64,000 nt of DNA from Synechococcus sp. PCC 6312 (GTDB taxonomy: Bacteria > Cyanobacteriota > Cyanobacteriia > Thermosynechococcales > Thermosynechococcaceae): NCBI RefSeq assembly GCF_000316685.1, contig NC_019680.1, forward strand, positions 745,501-809,500. The letters are read 5' to 3'. Position numbers and translations under genes: made by a program. Below the pieces are notes generated by a model. It worked only from the letters and a program-made list of their open reading frames with translations, made no database searches and had not been told where the DNA came from. Of the stretch, positions 18,039 to 47,138 are shown piece by piece; within the stretch, counting starts at the first letter, position 1, and each line of letters begins with the position of its first letter.

Positions 18039-18611
18039 CTAAAATACGACCCGTTGATACAAAGACTGTATCGAAATCTGGAAATTAATTGACATTAAAG
18101 CCAACACACTCTCTTGACCTTCAAGCGGCTGGAATAACCATTGCCCATCATCCCGTTTACTAAATTGCTCCACATAATAGGCGGATTGGGAAATCAAAAT
18201 ATATTCTTGCAAGCTGGGCAAGAGGCGGTAAAACCCAAATTTCCGAGTTCGGTTATAATTTGCTATAGAGTCCGATAACACTTCAATAATCACCTTGGGA
18301 TTCGTCACCACCACCGGATTGTTACCTTGATAAATGGGTTGACCCTTAACAATCAAAACATCGGGGTAAGTATAGACTCGACAGGGTTCAATTCAGGCTT
18401 TAACGTCATTGATATAGGTGTAATAGTCTTGACCATCAATGGTTAGGGGAAAAAGCCGACAAAAATTGAGCGCAATTTGGTTGTGATAGGTCGTCCCGCC
18501 GGTCATGGGGATAATTTCTCCGTCAATATATTCATTTCTAAACTCGGCAATTTCCTCCAAAGCTAAATATTCTTCGGGACTGTAGTACTTAACATCTGGT
18601 TGGGCAATCAT
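18039..18611 (-). pseudogene. Uma2-family nuclease interrupted by an in-frame TGA
   Basis: From ATG at 18611 the frame reads MIAQPDVKYYSPEEYLALEE and continues to TGA at 18393-18395. The same frame then resumes (IEPCRVYTYPDVLIVKG) and runs to a normal stop at 18039, giving about 190 codons, the usual Uma2 length. The PD, the E of IIEVLS and a Lys of the PD-(D/E)XK-like core all lie after the stop, so a truncated product would lack the active site. One nonsense mutation explains everything. It precedes DUF29 by 9 bases. TTG at 18356 could start a short C-terminal piece, but that would lack the N-terminal strands. Confidence 0.85.
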
Positions 18612-18703
18612 TGTTCTTCTCCCTAACAGCCCTGACAAAAATTCTTGATCACGATTACCCCACACCTTAGCATTTTCATCCCCAGGCCTGGCTCCGATTA
18701 AAT

Positions 18704-40748: not shown

Positions 40749-42497
40749 TTAATATTGTTGCCCGGATTTGCGATGTTGAATTGCCGTTAAGCCATTATCT
40801 TCAAGTAAATGCCCAGCCTGGACAACGGCATAAATTAACCAATGATCGCCACATTCTAAGCGGGATTCTACCTGACATTCAAGATAGGCTAAGGCATCGA
40901 TAATCACTGGACAACCGTTACTGGCTGCTTTTAAGGCCAACTCGGCTAAGGGAGTTTCACAGGGTTTGAGGGGTTGTTGAAAACTACGGCGGATATTTAA
41001 GCCTTCTTTGAGAATATTTAGGACAAAAACATCCCCAATTTGGCAGGTATTTTCCGCCCAATCCCGCTTGAGAGCCACGGTCAACCCCGGCGGATTAAAC
41101 GAGGCCTGCGAAATCCATGACACTAAAATAGATTCGGCCTGGGTTAAATCATGGGCAGCGGGGCTAGGCGTTGTCAACACACATAACGAGCCAACCACCC
41201 GCCCGACGGCCTGCTCTGTCCGATCCGCTTGCACATCCAATAACACCGGTTGCCGGACAGTGCGACTTTTGCGGGCTTTTTTCAGGGCCTGGGCAAATTC
41301 AGTTCCGGCAGCTTCACAGGCCAATAAATCTTGCTCAGTCGGCGTAAATTTCACCCGCAAGGTTTCAAATCCCAAGGCATACCCGGCATCTTGGAGCTTA
41401 CTTTCAATTTCATCCACGGCCTCGCCACTCCAGCCATAGGAGCCAAAGACTCCGGCCAGCTTAGTTTTGGCCGCATGGGAGAGCACCAGGCCCAGAGCGG
41501 TTTGGACTTGGGTGGGCATATGGCCGCCGAGAGTGGGAGAGCCAATCAAAAAGCCATCGGCTTCACTGACAATGGTTTGAATTTCGCTGGGCGGTGTAGC
41601 TTCACAGTTAATGGATTCGACTTTAATCCCAGCATCAGATAAGCCTTTCGCCAAGGCCTGGGCCATAATCGCCGTGTTGCCATAGGCCGAAGCATAGAGG
41701 AGCGCCACCGTTGTATCTTGTTCCTTTTGCTCTTGGGACCATTGCCGATAATCATGATTTAAGCGACTGAGGCTGAAGCGAACAAGGGGGCCGTGGGCCG
41801 GGGCATACATTTTTGGGGTGAGGGTGGCGATTTTATCGAGGGCTGTTTCTACTTGGCGAGATTGGGCCGCATGGAGACAGTCAAAGTAATACCGCCGATC
41901 TTGATCCAGCTTTTTCCAGGCCTCGTCATAGACCGCATCCCCACAGACATGAGTCCCAAAAAATTTATCCGTATATAAGATTCGCGTCACCGGATCATAG
42001 GTTAATAAGCCATCAGGCCAGCGGGGAGTCGGGGCAAAAATGAATTGCAGTTGATGATCCTGGCCCAAATCTAAAACAGCATCATTACGCGGTACCCAAA
42101 CCTGGAGTGGCTCAACTTCATCGGCAAAGGCGGCTTTGAGGGTGACAGCACCGGGTTTAGAACAAACAAAAATGGCCTGGGGGGCGAGTTGGTGCAGGGT
42201 TTTCAGCGTGGCGAGGCGGTTGGAGTTGAGATGCCCGAGGATAATGTAGTTTAGTTTTTGCAGATAGATATGTTGCGATAGTTCGGCCAAATAGAGTTCC
42301 GTAAATGATTCACCCGGCGGATCGATTAAGGCACTATACTCGGCCTGGATCAGATAGGAATTAGATGTCGTCCCCTGTTGTCGTCCATACTCAACTTCAA
42401 ACTTGAGTCGATCCCAGGTGCGAGATCTAAGAACGATGGTGTTGGGGCCAATTTCGGTAACTTGGACATCACGGGGGCGGGTTTGCGTCAGAGTCAT
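40749..42497 (-). CDS. flv1: flavodiiron protein Flv1 type
   Basis: From ATG at 42497 (AAGGACG ribosome site) the protein has 582 residues with three parts: a metallo-beta-lactamase-like domain, a flavodoxin domain (LLYASAYGNTAIMAQAL near 270) and a C-terminal flavin-reductase domain typical of cyanobacteria. In the iron-binding loop the usual HxExDH is HLNSNR (H89, N91, N93, R94), the ligand loss that marks the Flv1/Flv2 branch. With Flv3 it forms the photosystem I electron sink that reduces oxygen to water. It is separated from flv3 by about 2.9 kb of toxin-antitoxin and Uma2 genes on the same strand. Confidence 0.92.
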   Translation of the reverse strand: MTLTQTRPRDVQVTEIGPNTIVLRSRTWDRLKFEVEYGRQQGTTSNSYLIQAEYSALIDPPGESFTELYLAELSQHIYLQKLNYIILGHLNSNRLATLKTLHQLAPQAIFVCSKPGAVTLKAAFADEVEPLQVWVPRNDAVLDLGQDHQLQFIFAPTPRWPDGLLTYDPVTRILYTDKFFGTHVCGDAVYDEAWKKLDQDRRYYFDCLHAAQSRQVETALDKIATLTPKMYAPAHGPLVRFSLSRLNHDYRQWSQEQKEQDTTVALLYASAYGNTAIMAQALAKGLSDAGIKVESINCEATPPSEIQTIVSEADGFLIGSPTLGGHMPTQVQTALGLVLSHAAKTKLAGVFGSYGWSGEAVDEIESKLQDAGYALGFETLRVKFTPTEQDLLACEAAGTEFAQALKKARKSRTVRQPVLLDVQADRTEQAVGRVVGSLCVLTTPSPAAHDLTQAESILVSWISQASFNPPGLTVALKRDWAENTCQIGDVFVLNILKEGLNIRRSFQQPLKPCETPLAELALKAASNGCPVIIDALAYLECQVESRLECGDHWLIYAVVQAGHLLEDNGLTAIQHRKSGQQY

Positions 42498-42540
42498 AGA
42501 AAACGTCCTTGGGATAAAGGGCACAAGTTACAAAAATTAC

Positions 42541-42759
42541 CTAAGCAACAGTTTGACTAAATGGCTTGTACATTGGTTCAGGAACAGGTTTACCAGATGA
42601 TTTTGCCGTCTCTAACCAGGCCTGCTTGGCTAAGAGGACTTCATCGAGGGCTTCTTCTGGACTATCACCCGCTGCAGAACAGTACTTTAAGTCTGGAATA
42701 TCCGCAATATAGGCTTTGTCTTCATCGCTGTAGAAAATGTTAATGTGATAATCCTTCAT
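42541..42759 (-). CDS. HicB-like antitoxin
   Basis: A 72-residue protein of the short HicB/UPF0150 type: YHINIFYSDEDKAYIADIPDL followed by CSAAGDSPEEALDEVLLAKQAWLETA. The partial RNase H-like fold binds and blocks HicA. No extra DNA-binding domain is present, as in many cyanobacterial HicB proteins. Its start overlaps the stop of the HicA-like gene by one base, so the pair is co-translated. Its own end lies 43 bases from the flv1 start. Confidence 0.8.
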   Translation of the reverse strand: MKDYHINIFYSDEDKAYIADIPDLKYCSAAGDSPEEALDEVLLAKQAWLETAKSSGKPVPEPMYKPFSQTVA

Positions 42760-43019
42760 TAATCCTCCTCAAATTTAAGTTTGTATTCTTCAATTAGGTC
42801 TAGAAATTGGCGAACGTGATAGGGCTGAACAAATCCTTTACGGTTTTGAATGTTAATGATCTCTGGTATAAATGAATGCTTAAATATATGATGACTTCCG
42901 TTAATTCTATCAAGCCTGAAGCCAAAAGCCTCTAATAATGTGACCATATCGCTAAAGGAAATGTTCTTGGGATTTCGTATCGCCTTATCGAGTAGTTTTT
43001 TCTTCTTCACTAGATTCAA
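42759..43019 (-). CDS. HicA-like mRNA interferase toxin
   Basis: An 86-residue basic protein with the double-stranded RNA-binding-like HicA core: SDMVTLLEAFGFRLDRINGSHHIFKH, where the His of GSHHIF (H43/H44) is the catalytic residue of the family, then VQPYHVRQFLDLIEEY. HicA toxins cleave mRNA when free of HicB. Order toxin then antitoxin is standard. This longer form with an N-terminal lysine-rich segment is common in cyanobacteria. It lies between the Uma2 array and flv1. Confidence 0.8.
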   Translation of the reverse strand: MNLVKKKKLLDKAIRNPKNISFSDMVTLLEAFGFRLDRINGSHHIFKHSFIPEIINIQNRKGFVQPYHVRQFLDLIEEYKLKFEED

Positions 43020-43068: not shown

Positions 43069-43635
43069 TTAAGCATTAAGTATTTGGCTAGCATTCATTT
43101 GTAATTCTGAAAACGTAGATGAGATCAGTTGCTGTTCATTGCGGAAAACCTGTGGATCATAAGCTTCATTCTTAAGCGTGTAAATTGTAATTCTCGGATC
43201 CTCATTGATGGCATATATGACCCAATACTCAGGAATTCCCGTGGCCTGGTATTCGTCTCGTTTAGTAATATAGTCATCTTGAATTGAACTAGAACTGACT
43301 GCTTCAACCACCAGTAAGGGTGAGGTTTCAAAAACTCCAGATAAATCTTTGATCGCCTCGGTTTGCGCAATAGTGGTCACACATAAATCAGGACAACGAG
43401 AGGTTCTCAGTCCAGTTCTCACACCAACATTATGGAGAGTTACCCAGGGGAGATTTTTGCGTTTAATTTCTGCTTCAAATAGCAACTCTAAAAATCTCAC
43501 GATCAGTTGATGTCGAATCTTAGGGGGAGTCATGGAAATTAGATGACCCTCTACTAATTCATAACGCGTATCAGCACCATCATCATAGGTTAGGTACTCT
43601 TCAAAGGTCAGGTTTGGGGTGGTGGTGATCAGCAT
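43069..43635 (-). CDS. Uma2-family putative nuclease, array copy 1
   Basis: From ATG at 43635 the protein has 188 residues of the Uma2 (DUF820) PD-(D/E)XK-like fold. The core motifs are intact: PD in TSRCPDLCV, E in LVVEAVSSSS and K in YITKRDEY, followed by IPEYWVIYAI. It is the last of four tandem copies and the most diverged at its C-terminus. Its first 30 residues are nearly identical to copies 2 and 3. A GTG four codons upstream is an alternative start. Uma2 proteins are widespread in cyanobacteria with no settled cellular role. Confidence 0.82.
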   Translation of the reverse strand: MLITTTPNLTFEEYLTYDDGADTRYELVEGHLISMTPPKIRHQLIVRFLELLFEAEIKRKNLPWVTLHNVGVRTGLRTSRCPDLCVTTIAQTEAIKDLSGVFETSPLLVVEAVSSSSIQDDYITKRDEYQATGIPEYWVIYAINEDPRITIYTLKNEAYDPQVFRNEQQLISSTFSELQMNASQILNA

Positions 43636-43648
43636 TTTATGACTCACA

Positions 43649-44215
43649 TTAGGCGTTGAGAATCTGTTCGGCAGTAATTTTTAATTCAGGAAATGTCGGA
43701 GAAATCAATAATTCAGCATTGGAAAATATGTTTAGATGATAAACATTATCGGTCAGGGTATGAATTGTAATCCTGGGATTTTCACTGATGGCATCGACCA
43801 CCCAATATTCAGGAATTCTTATGGCCTGGTATTCGTCTCGTTTGGTTATGTAATCATCCTCAATAGAACTAGGACTAACGACTTCAACAGCAAGCAATAC
43901 TGGAAATTCCGAGATCGCTGGACGAGATTTCAAGTTTACTAGTTGTTGCTTAGGAATTACCGCAAGATCAGGAATTCTGGATGTACTCATCCCCGTTCGC
44001 TGGCCTGGTTCTAAAAAAGTCATCCAAGGTACGTTTAATCGCCTAATTTCTTGTAACAGGGTTTCAAAGATAAAATGAGTGATGAAATAATGCTGCCAGA
44101 TTGCCGGAGTCATGGGAACTAAACGACCCTCAACCAATTCATAGCGCGTGTCAGTGCCATCATCATAGGTTAGGTACTCTTCAAAGGTCAGGTTTGGGGT
44201 GGTGGTGATCAGCAT
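43649..44215 (-). CDS. Uma2-family putative nuclease, array copy 2
   Basis: This 188-residue copy starts at ATG 44215; the open frame extends to 44269 but only by reading into copy 3. Motifs PD (SRIPDLAVI), E ([11 protein letters not shown]) and K (YITKRDEY) are present. The last 75 or so residues are almost identical to copy 4 and very close to copy 3, while the middle (residues 35-105) is distinct. It is spaced 13 bases from each neighbour, so the array was made by duplication of one unit with its junction. Confidence 0.85.
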
Positions 44216-44228
44216 TTTGTAACTCACG

Positions 44229-44795
44229 TTAGGCGTTGAGAATTTGTTCGGCAGTAACTTGTAATTCAAGAAATGTCGGAGAAATCAATAATTCAGCATT
44301 GGAAAATATGTTTGGATGATAAACATCATCGGTCAGAGTATGAATTGTAATCCTGGGATTTTCACTGATGGCATCGACCACCCAATATTCAGGAATTCCT
44401 ATGGCCTGGTATTCATCGCGTTTGCTTATGTAATCATCTTCAACCGAGCTAGGACTAACCACTTCAACAGCCAGTAAAGCAGCAGATTCAAAGATGGCAG
44501 GCTGAAATCGCAATTCTTCTATTACTGTTATTGGGATCACCAGAAGATCAGGAAGTCTTGAGTTTCTTATACCTGTTCGCTGACCAGCCTCTAATAAAGT
44601 TAGATAGGGTAAGTTAGCACGTTTTATTGCTGATTCAAACATGAGCATTAAAAAACGAGCAATTAAATAATGTTGTAAAATTGGTGGAGTCATCGGAATT
44701 AACTGACCCTCTACTAATTCATAGCGCGTGTCAGTGTCATCATCATAGGTTAGGTACTCTTCAAAGGTCAGGTTTTGGGTGGTGGTGATCAGCAT
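44229..44795 (-). CDS. Uma2-family putative nuclease, array copy 3
   Basis: From ATG 44795 the protein has 188 residues with D83 (SRLPDLLVI), E111 ([11 protein letters not shown]) and K125 (YISKRDEY), so the nuclease-like core looks complete. Its central region ([20 protein letters not shown]) resembles copy 1 more than copies 2 and 4, while its C-terminus resembles 2 and 4: a recombinant appearance. A GTG at 44807 is an alternative start. Same 13-base spacing as the rest of the array. Confidence 0.85.
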
Positions 44796-44808
44796 TTTAT
44801 AACTCACG

Positions 44809-45372
44809 TTAGGCGTTGAGAATTTGTTCGGCAGTAATTTTTAATTCAGGAAATGTCGGAGAAATCAATAATTCAGCATTGGAAAATATGTTTAGATGAT
44901 AAACATTATCGGTCAGGGTATGAATTGCAATCCTGGGATTTTCACTGATGGCATCGACCACCCAATATTCAGGAATTCCTATGGCCTGGTACTCGTCTCG
45001 TTCGGTAATATAGTCATCTTGAATTGAACTAGGACTGACTACTTCAACTGCCAATAACGCTGGAACCTCTAAAACTAAGGACTGATAACGCATCGCTTCC
45101 ATATTTGTTTTGGGTATGACTAATAGAGCCGATAAGCGTGAGGTTTTGGGGCCAGTTTGTTGACCGGGTTCAAACACAACCATCCAAGGTAATTTTAAGC
45201 GTCTAATTTCTTGCAAAAAAGTTTCAAATATAAAATGAGTAATAAAGTAATGTTGCCCAATTGCTGGAGTCATGAGAACTAACTTTCCGTGATCCAGTTC
45301 ATAGCGGGAATCAGTGCCATCATCATAGGTGAGATACTCTTCAAAAGTGAATATTGACTGGGTAGTAAGCAT
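44809..45372 (-). CDS. Uma2-family protein, array copy 4, active-site residues altered
   Basis: The first gene of the array (187 residues, ATG 45372) begins [14 protein letters not shown]. At the PD position it has S81-A82 (SRLSALLVI) and at the Lys position E124 (YITERDEY), while E110 is kept. If the PD and Lys are catalytic, as in the PD-(D/E)XK model, this copy should be inactive. Otherwise it is intact and nearly identical to copy 2 at its C-terminus. It lies 56 bases after flv3 on the same strand. Confidence 0.83.
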
Positions 45373-45428: not shown

Positions 45429-47138
45429 TTAGTAATGATTCCCCACTTTGCGGTGATGGACGGCAGTTAAGGCATCTGGTTTTGAGACCCGGCCGGTTTC
45501 GATGGTGCTATAGACTAACCAATGATCATGACAGTCCAAGCGATTGATCACCGTACATTCCACATAGGCTAAAGCATCGGCCAAAATTGGGCTGCCATTG
45601 TTTGCGGGATAGGTTTTGATCGTGGCAAAGCGATCGGCTCCCGGGGGGAAGCGTTTGAGGAAGTGGCGCATTAGGGGTTGATAGTTCCCTTCTTCCAAGA
45701 CATTCAGGACAAAGGTATCGCCCACGTGCATAAAGGATTCAATGGCCCGGTCTTTAGCCACCGCAATCGTCACGCCAAGGGGTTCAACACTGGCCTGGGC
45801 CACCCAAGAAGCCAACATGGCACTGTTAATGTCCCCTTTTTGGGCAGTGATGATATAAAGTCCGCCACTGAGTCGGCCTAATGCCTTATCTAGATCCGTA
45901 TCCAAGGATTTCATTTGCTTAACGGTGCGATCTCGAAGTAACCATTGCCCCATATCGGTTCCGGCTTCCTCGGCCTGTTGGAGCAGGGCTTCATTGGGAG
46001 CTTCGGCAACGCGGATCACCGGAAAAGATGGGGTTAGGCCCAAGTCTCGAAATTGATTGAAGAGAGGATACGCGGCTTCACTGCCGACAACACCGGTTTC
46101 AAAGACCCCAATGGCTTGCTTGTTATGGGCAGTGGCGAGGATGGTGCTGAGGCTGGTTTGGGCGGTACTATCGGGCATGCCAATAATAATTCCGGCGGCA
46201 ATATCGACAATTTCCCGGACTTCTTGCTGATCTGTGGTAGTCAGGTCAACAGGTTCAACAACTACTCCAGTTTTGCTGGCACCTCGGTTAATCGCCTCTG
46301 CTAAGACATCACTGTAGCCATAGCCGGGTTGGTAGAACAGAGCAATGGTTGCCGCTGCTTTGGCCTGGGCCTGGCTCCATGTCCGGTAATTTTCCACCCA
46401 ATCTGTCAAATGCTCTTTCAATAGGGGGCCGTGGCCAGTGGCAATTAATTTAATCTCTGGTAAATCTCCCATGCGTTTGAGGGCAGATAACACCGAGCGC
46501 GCATTAGGGCCCATGAGGCAGTCGTAGTAGAACTTAAAGTCGGGGGCAATCAGTTCTGAGTCGCTGTCGTAGGTGTCATCGTTGCAATAGTGCATCCCGA
46601 AAACATCACAGGTAAAAAGGGTTTGCGTCCCGTGGTCATAGGAGAGGATCGTGTCGGGCCAGTGGAGGTTGGGGGCCATGACAAATTCGATGATGTGGCC
46701 GTTGCCTAAGTCAATTTGCTCGCCGTTTTTAATAACCTGTTGTTGAAATGGTTGATGGACAAACCCACTCAGGAATTGCAGGGCAACTTTAGAACCAACG
46801 ACGGTGATGTGCGGGGCTTTGGCCAAAACATCTTTCACCAGGCCACTGTGATCCGGTTCCGTATGACTGATGATCAAGTAATCCAATTCAGCGGGGTCAA
46901 TGAGTTCCCAGAGTTTTTCCAGGTAAATATCCCGGAATTTGGCATGGGATGTATCGACGAGGCCCAGTTTTTCACCACGGATAATAAAGGAATTGTAGGT
47001 AGTGCCATTTTCCAGGCCAAACTCAATATCAAACCGTTCTCGATCCCAATCTAAACATCTCAAGGCCGTCGTATCAGGGGCAATGGCCTGGGTTTCCAGG
47101 GTCAACCGGGCGGGGCGAGTGGCAGATGCAACGACCAT
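45429..47138 (-). CDS. flv3: flavodiiron protein Flv3 type
   Basis: A 569-residue flavodiiron protein with the full iron-binding set HTEPDH (H92, E94, D96, H97), a flavodoxin domain (LFYQPGYGYSDVLAEAI) and a C-terminal flavin-reductase domain. The canonical ligands mark the Flv3/Flv4 branch; the presence of a Flv1-type neighbour makes Flv3 the better name. A strong AGGAGG site lies seven bases before the ATG. The pair protects photosystem I in fluctuating light by an oxygen-reduction reaction that makes no superoxide. Confidence 0.92.
   Translation of the reverse strand: MVVASATRPARLTLETQAIAPDTTALRCLDWDRERFDIEFGLENGTTYNSFIIRGEKLGLVDTSHAKFRDIYLEKLWELIDPAELDYLIISHTEPDHSGLVKDVLAKAPHITVVGSKVALQFLSGFVHQPFQQQVIKNGEQIDLGNGHIIEFVMAPNLHWPDTILSYDHGTQTLFTCDVFGMHYCNDDTYDSDSELIAPDFKFYYDCLMGPNARSVLSALKRMGDLPEIKLIATGHGPLLKEHLTDWVENYRTWSQAQAKAAATIALFYQPGYGYSDVLAEAINRGASKTGVVVEPVDLTTTDQQEVREIVDIAAGIIIGMPDSTAQTSLSTILATAHNKQAIGVFETGVVGSEAAYPLFNQFRDLGLTPSFPVIRVAEAPNEALLQQAEEAGTDMGQWLLRDRTVKQMKSLDTDLDKALGRLSGGLYIITAQKGDINSAMLASWVAQASVEPLGVTIAVAKDRAIESFMHVGDTFVLNVLEEGNYQPLMRHFLKRFPPGADRFATIKTYPANNGSPILADALAYVECTVINRLDCHDHWLVYSTIETGRVSKPDALTAVHHRKVGNHY

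Follow-up and report, generated by a model that had tools for sequence, protein, structure and literature searches.

Few protein families of cyanobacteria have expanded as much as Uma2, its role is unsettled, and some of its members are annotated as putative restriction or defence genes, by annotation only. In the sections of Makarova 2009 (PMC2701414) considered here, the family is described as occurring mostly in cassettes of paralogous genes and as a likely solo toxin. The corresponding sections of Feder and Bujnicki 2005 (PMC551604) present Uma2 genes as selfish nuclease genes, report four consecutive COG4636 genes in Crocosphaera watsonii, and lay out an active site of H, PD, E and a migrated K, with variants listed at the Lys and with the Asp and Glu called 'practically invariant'.

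Here, we describe four Uma2 genes in tandem in Synechococcus sp. PCC 6312 that resemble these cassettes. While Uma2 cassettes as such are known, the register of the homogenised DNA, which is restricted to the gene junctions, and a first copy that is predicted to be dead are new, and both are absent from the considered sections of the published descriptions. We regard it as likely that the array is a tandem cassette of long standing, made up of four Uma2 paralogs of the PD-(D/E)XK type under junction-restricted gene conversion. Within 188 codons it separates three components, namely DNA made alike by recombination, protein sequence maintained by selection, and a core that has diverged, and it offers a small test case for the evolution of mosaic families.

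The array, its predicted fold and its genomic setting

The four genes occupy positions 43069-45372 on the minus strand of the window (the whole stretch of 64,000 nucleotides that was analysed), as taken from the list of open reading frames. They are lettered in transcription order, from A through B and C to D, which in window order makes D copy 1, C copy 2, B copy 3 and A copy 4. Copy A (44809..45372), copy B (44229..44795), copy C (43649..44215) and copy D (43069..43635), all on the minus strand, follow each other with a period of exactly 580 nt and spacers of 13 nt. The fixed 13-base spacing of the original prediction was thereby confirmed, and its equal gene length applies to B, C and D with 188 amino acids each, but not to copy A with 187.

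All four proteins matched the Pfam profile of Uma2/DUF820/COG4636 (PF05685) with 77 to 109 bits, against a curated cut-off of 27 (E 1.3e-21 for copy A). Copy B, the one copy modelled, is predicted by AlphaFold2 (pLDDT 91.6) to adopt a PD-(D/E)XK-like fold, and the best matches of a structure search with this model were the DUF820/Uma2 entries 9y1l, 3ot2, 6okh and 1wdj (E 1e-11 to 9e-7). In the model, the head of the protein is an N-terminal helix with two strands, the core comprises a long helix (residues 40-59), a hairpin, the strand after the PD motif and a short helix, and a C-terminal hairpin forms the tail. The array resembles the Uma2 family in the profile match of all four copies, the predicted fold of copy B and the active-site layout of B, C and D; copy A departs from it in lacking the near-invariant Asp as well as the Lys. 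A literature search for a crystal-structure paper on DUF820 found nothing further.

The array is flanked upstream by flv1 (45429..47138, minus strand) and downstream by flv2 (40749..42524, minus strand), two diflavin flavoprotein genes recognised by Pfam and synteny. Between the array and flv2 lies a toxin-antitoxin pair (42541-43019), consisting of a HicA-like toxin gene (42759..43019, minus strand; Pfam HicA_toxin, E 2.5e-9) and a HicB-like antitoxin gene (42541..42759, minus strand; Pfam HicB_lk_antitox, E 6.5e-7). In a search of 39 genomes, one relative, G007, had an flv1 homologue followed directly by one Uma2 gene, which was the best match to copy B in that search and, with 45-48% amino acid identity to the array, is a distant ortholog. 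Other relatives lacked Uma2 at the site and had flv1 and flv2 side by side or close to one another, or had flv1 alone. Relatives, which here are other genera, thus carry none or one Uma2 gene at the site, and identical arrays in all of them, the outcome that would have spoken against the original prediction, were not found. A Uma2 gene at the flv1 site is likely ancestral and shared with G007, although separate insertions could have produced the same arrangement. The cassette would have entered, or been kept at, a site flanked by two flavodiiron genes.

A search of the array's own genome gave 46 Uma2 matches, compared with 104 and 117 in the 4-5 Mb genomes G007 and G009. The nearest Uma2 gene outside the array (genome positions 2982862-2983419) shares about 37-39% amino acid identity with it. 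A further Uma2 locus within the window (18039-18665, minus strand) is broken into two reading frames, with one TGA within the match. The array DNA had no match in a plasmid collection, and a plasmid element was rejected on this ground; a cyanophage record gave one weak, partial match covering 36% of the query.

Homogenised DNA at the gene junctions

The near-identical DNA of the array forms a single uninterrupted block, about 280 nt long, that joins the tail of one copy, the spacer and the head of the next, extending from about codon 131 over the stop codon and the spacer to about 30 codons of the following gene. Sliding identity and junction alignment place this block three times, once per junction, at 44706..44988 (tail A, 13-nt spacer, head B), 44126..44408 (tail B, spacer, head C) and 43546..43828 (tail C, spacer, head D), all on the minus strand and with approximate limits; three in-register 300-nt repeats (family D2) span the same junctions. 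The heads of B, C and D share 95-97% nucleotide identity, whereas that of A reaches only 50-80%, and the tails of A, B and C are 93-100% identical over the last ~58 codons, compared with 58-70% for that of D. Both outer ends of the array (head in A, tail in D) are therefore divergent and lie outside the homogenised block. The proposed near-identity of the first 30 codons consequently applies to B, C and D and fails for A, while that of the last 75 codons fails for D and, in A, B and C, was drawn too long. The junction register of the block explains both exceptions to the rule of conserved ends.

Synonymous sites separate recombination from selection in these segments. By Nei-Gojobori counts, the tails of A, B and C have a pS of 0.03-0.06 and the synonymously saturated cores one of 0.56-0.77. 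Among positions with the same residue, identical codons are used at 52/53 (AB), 56/57 (AC) and 51/53 (BC) positions of the tails and at 18/39, 19/48 and 20/41 positions of the cores, respectively (Fisher p 4e-9, 4e-12 and 8e-8); as segment borders were set after viewing the alignment, these p values are descriptive. A border-free permutation of run lengths gave p = 0.00015 for AB and, for AC, the lowest value that the test can yield (5e-5), with weaker results for other pairs. Divergence along the gene is thus non-uniform far beyond chance by both tests. Because the ends are near-identical even at synonymous sites while the cores are saturated, recombination, and not selection alone, homogenises the ends. 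As in concerted evolution, paralogs within one genome are unexpectedly alike at synonymous sites over contiguous tracts.

It is very improbable that plain purifying selection accounts for this pattern, with functionally constrained ends and a loosely constrained core. Codons ~113-128, covering the EVV motif and the K region, do behave in this way: their protein sequence is conserved and their synonymous sites often are not, with identical codons at only 3/12 (AB) and 4/12 (BD) same-residue positions, and the Uma2 family has a mild core dip generally. However, near-identity extends to synonymous sites in the tails and in the heads of B, C and D, and the outer head (A) and outer tail (D) are divergent although they code for these same parts of the protein. 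Since codons 113-128 are alike in protein and not consistently in codons, selection holds this stretch, while the remainder is held by recombination. The synonymous sites, unless they are themselves constrained, ruled out uniform constraint as an explanation for the conserved ends. In copies A and D, codons 113-130 (approximately 44980-45036 and 43246-43299) have a pS of 0.17 although the tails of the two copies differ, which may reflect a separate short conversion tract.

We infer gene conversion, rather than another route of recombination, as the process behind the homogenised junctions. Four cores that are old or separately derived would have been present first, and the homologous tail-spacer-head junctions would afterwards have been made alike by short conversion tracts of about 280 nt. 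These tracts would end on reaching cores that have diverged too far, and the outer head and outer tail would have escaped for want of a junction partner.

Divergent cores and other tandem Uma2 loci

The central segments differ strongly among the copies, as originally noted. The proposed similarity of the cores of copies 3 and 1 (B and D) stands for the helix, with 19/31 identical amino acids, and not for the second half of the core of B, which is nearer to C (24/44). The strongest core match, which the original prediction did not contain, is that of A and C at 26/31 amino acids in residues 36-66, where 11/24 synonymous codons differ despite the match in protein.

Divergence among the four cores is about the same as that from Uma2 proteins of other genera. 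Replacement of cores through recombination with foreign alleles would give the same picture as junction conversion. Such swapping, in which a Uma2 unit was recently amplified and its cores were replaced by recombination with divergent alleles from other cells, the conserved head and tail serving as homology arms, is possible but somewhat doubtful in our assessment. It would also fit the independent assortment of cores and tails between species at a site in Microcoleaceae. No donor was found, however, among 39 further Uma2 loci in the genome (nearest ~37% amino acid identity, on which an origin from these loci was rejected) or among the sampled relatives, and a single clade of the four cores was not rejected (AU p 0.53) in a core tree that is uninformative, neither supporting nor rejecting a single origin.

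The Microcoleaceae site lies between ddl-like and rimO-like genes and holds one, two or three full-length Uma2 genes depending on the species. Across these genes, heads share 91-100% and cores 44-98% amino acid identity, and core similarity is independent of tail similarity. Loci L128 and L129, for instance, have tails with 98% identical amino acids and 98% identical codons and cores with 81% and 71%, respectively, while the cores of L128 and of the first copy of L134 are 95% and 97% identical by the same two measures. With the same layout and one to three copies, the site provides a comparative system for the role of the core. Two or three Uma2 genes are found there in L134 (4495-6624) and L138 (3063-4538).

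Homogenised ends recur in some of these tandem loci. Identical codons were in excess in the head over the core in L138 (27/28 vs 36/51; Fisher p 0.007), in the end over the core between copies 1 and 2 of L134 (24/24 vs 28/46; p 0.00014), and in the tail over the core in L193 on contig 130 of G007 (33/45 vs 11/43; p 1.4e-5), three loci chosen out of about 20 tandem pairs, the majority of which were without homogenisation or too divergent to tell. Copies 2 and 3 of L134 had no such excess (p 0.24). In a control set of 446 pairs drawn from other Uma2 genes, for the most part of Nostocales, identity fell only mildly in the core and the synonymous fraction did not clearly dip, so the mosaic belongs to some tandem loci and not to the Uma2 family as such. 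Synonymous near-identity at the junctions, saturation of the cores and recurrence in independent tandem loci together lend good support to the repeated gene conversion that was originally suggested.

The other suggestion, selection for diverse cores, did not fare as well. Core dN/dS was 0.27-0.42 where dS was finite, with dS saturated in two pairs, and in the helix shared by A and C the protein is conserved while codons differ; the cores bear no sign of positive selection, within the little power that dS saturation leaves. We therefore consider it unlikely that diversifying selection of the kind acting in specificity or immunity families keeps the cores different while conversion homogenises the ends, even though species differ strongly in their core types at the ddl-rimO site, with nearly constant heads, and the subfamily is listed as a defence candidate (see below).

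Copy A and the possible function of the array

The predicted active-site residues of copy B (E26, H42, D83, E111 and K125) are intact in B, C and D, and the catalytic Asp of the PD motif, the Glu and the migrated Lys are thus present in these three copies, which are putatively active nucleases. Copy A carries the substitutions P82S, D83A and K125E (copy B numbering), leaving A83 and E125 at the Asp and Lys sites. In a residue census of 206 other Uma2 frames, a set that includes some loci fetched twice and hence somewhat fewer distinct genes, Asp occupied the site in 197, nine were unaligned there, and none lacked both Asp and Lys. The predicted-dead first copy poses a direct question for the bench.

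These three substitutions could mean that copy A is a decaying pseudogene in an array without coordinated function, a possibility that we take seriously but do not favour. The reading frame of copy A is intact, and its residues 36-66 match copy C in protein despite the codon differences described above. Relative-rate counts gave no acceleration of copy A at low power, with 12 changes in A vs 9 in C against copy B and 8 vs 7 against copy D, i.e., at few sites. Given this balance, a weak test, and the match to C, copy A is probably maintained. It is tempting to speculate that the core helix and adjoining strands form a module for partner or target specificity on a conversion-homogenised scaffold, with a dead copy A retained as a built-in inhibitor or regulator, helix-matched to the active copy C; we think this improbable at present.

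A role of the array in phage defence or as a toxin is plausible, and its cellular function may be that of a solo toxin or a phage-defence nuclease. Any analogy with specificity or immunity families is hypothetical, with a candidate listing as the one link to defence. A literature search found no paper naming this candidate, PDC-S03, a label that comes from the PADLOC model library, where the Uma2 subfamily of the array is listed as a candidate for phage defence. All four copies match the corresponding PADLOC model PDLC04833 with E values of 1.5e-58 to 1.7e-65.
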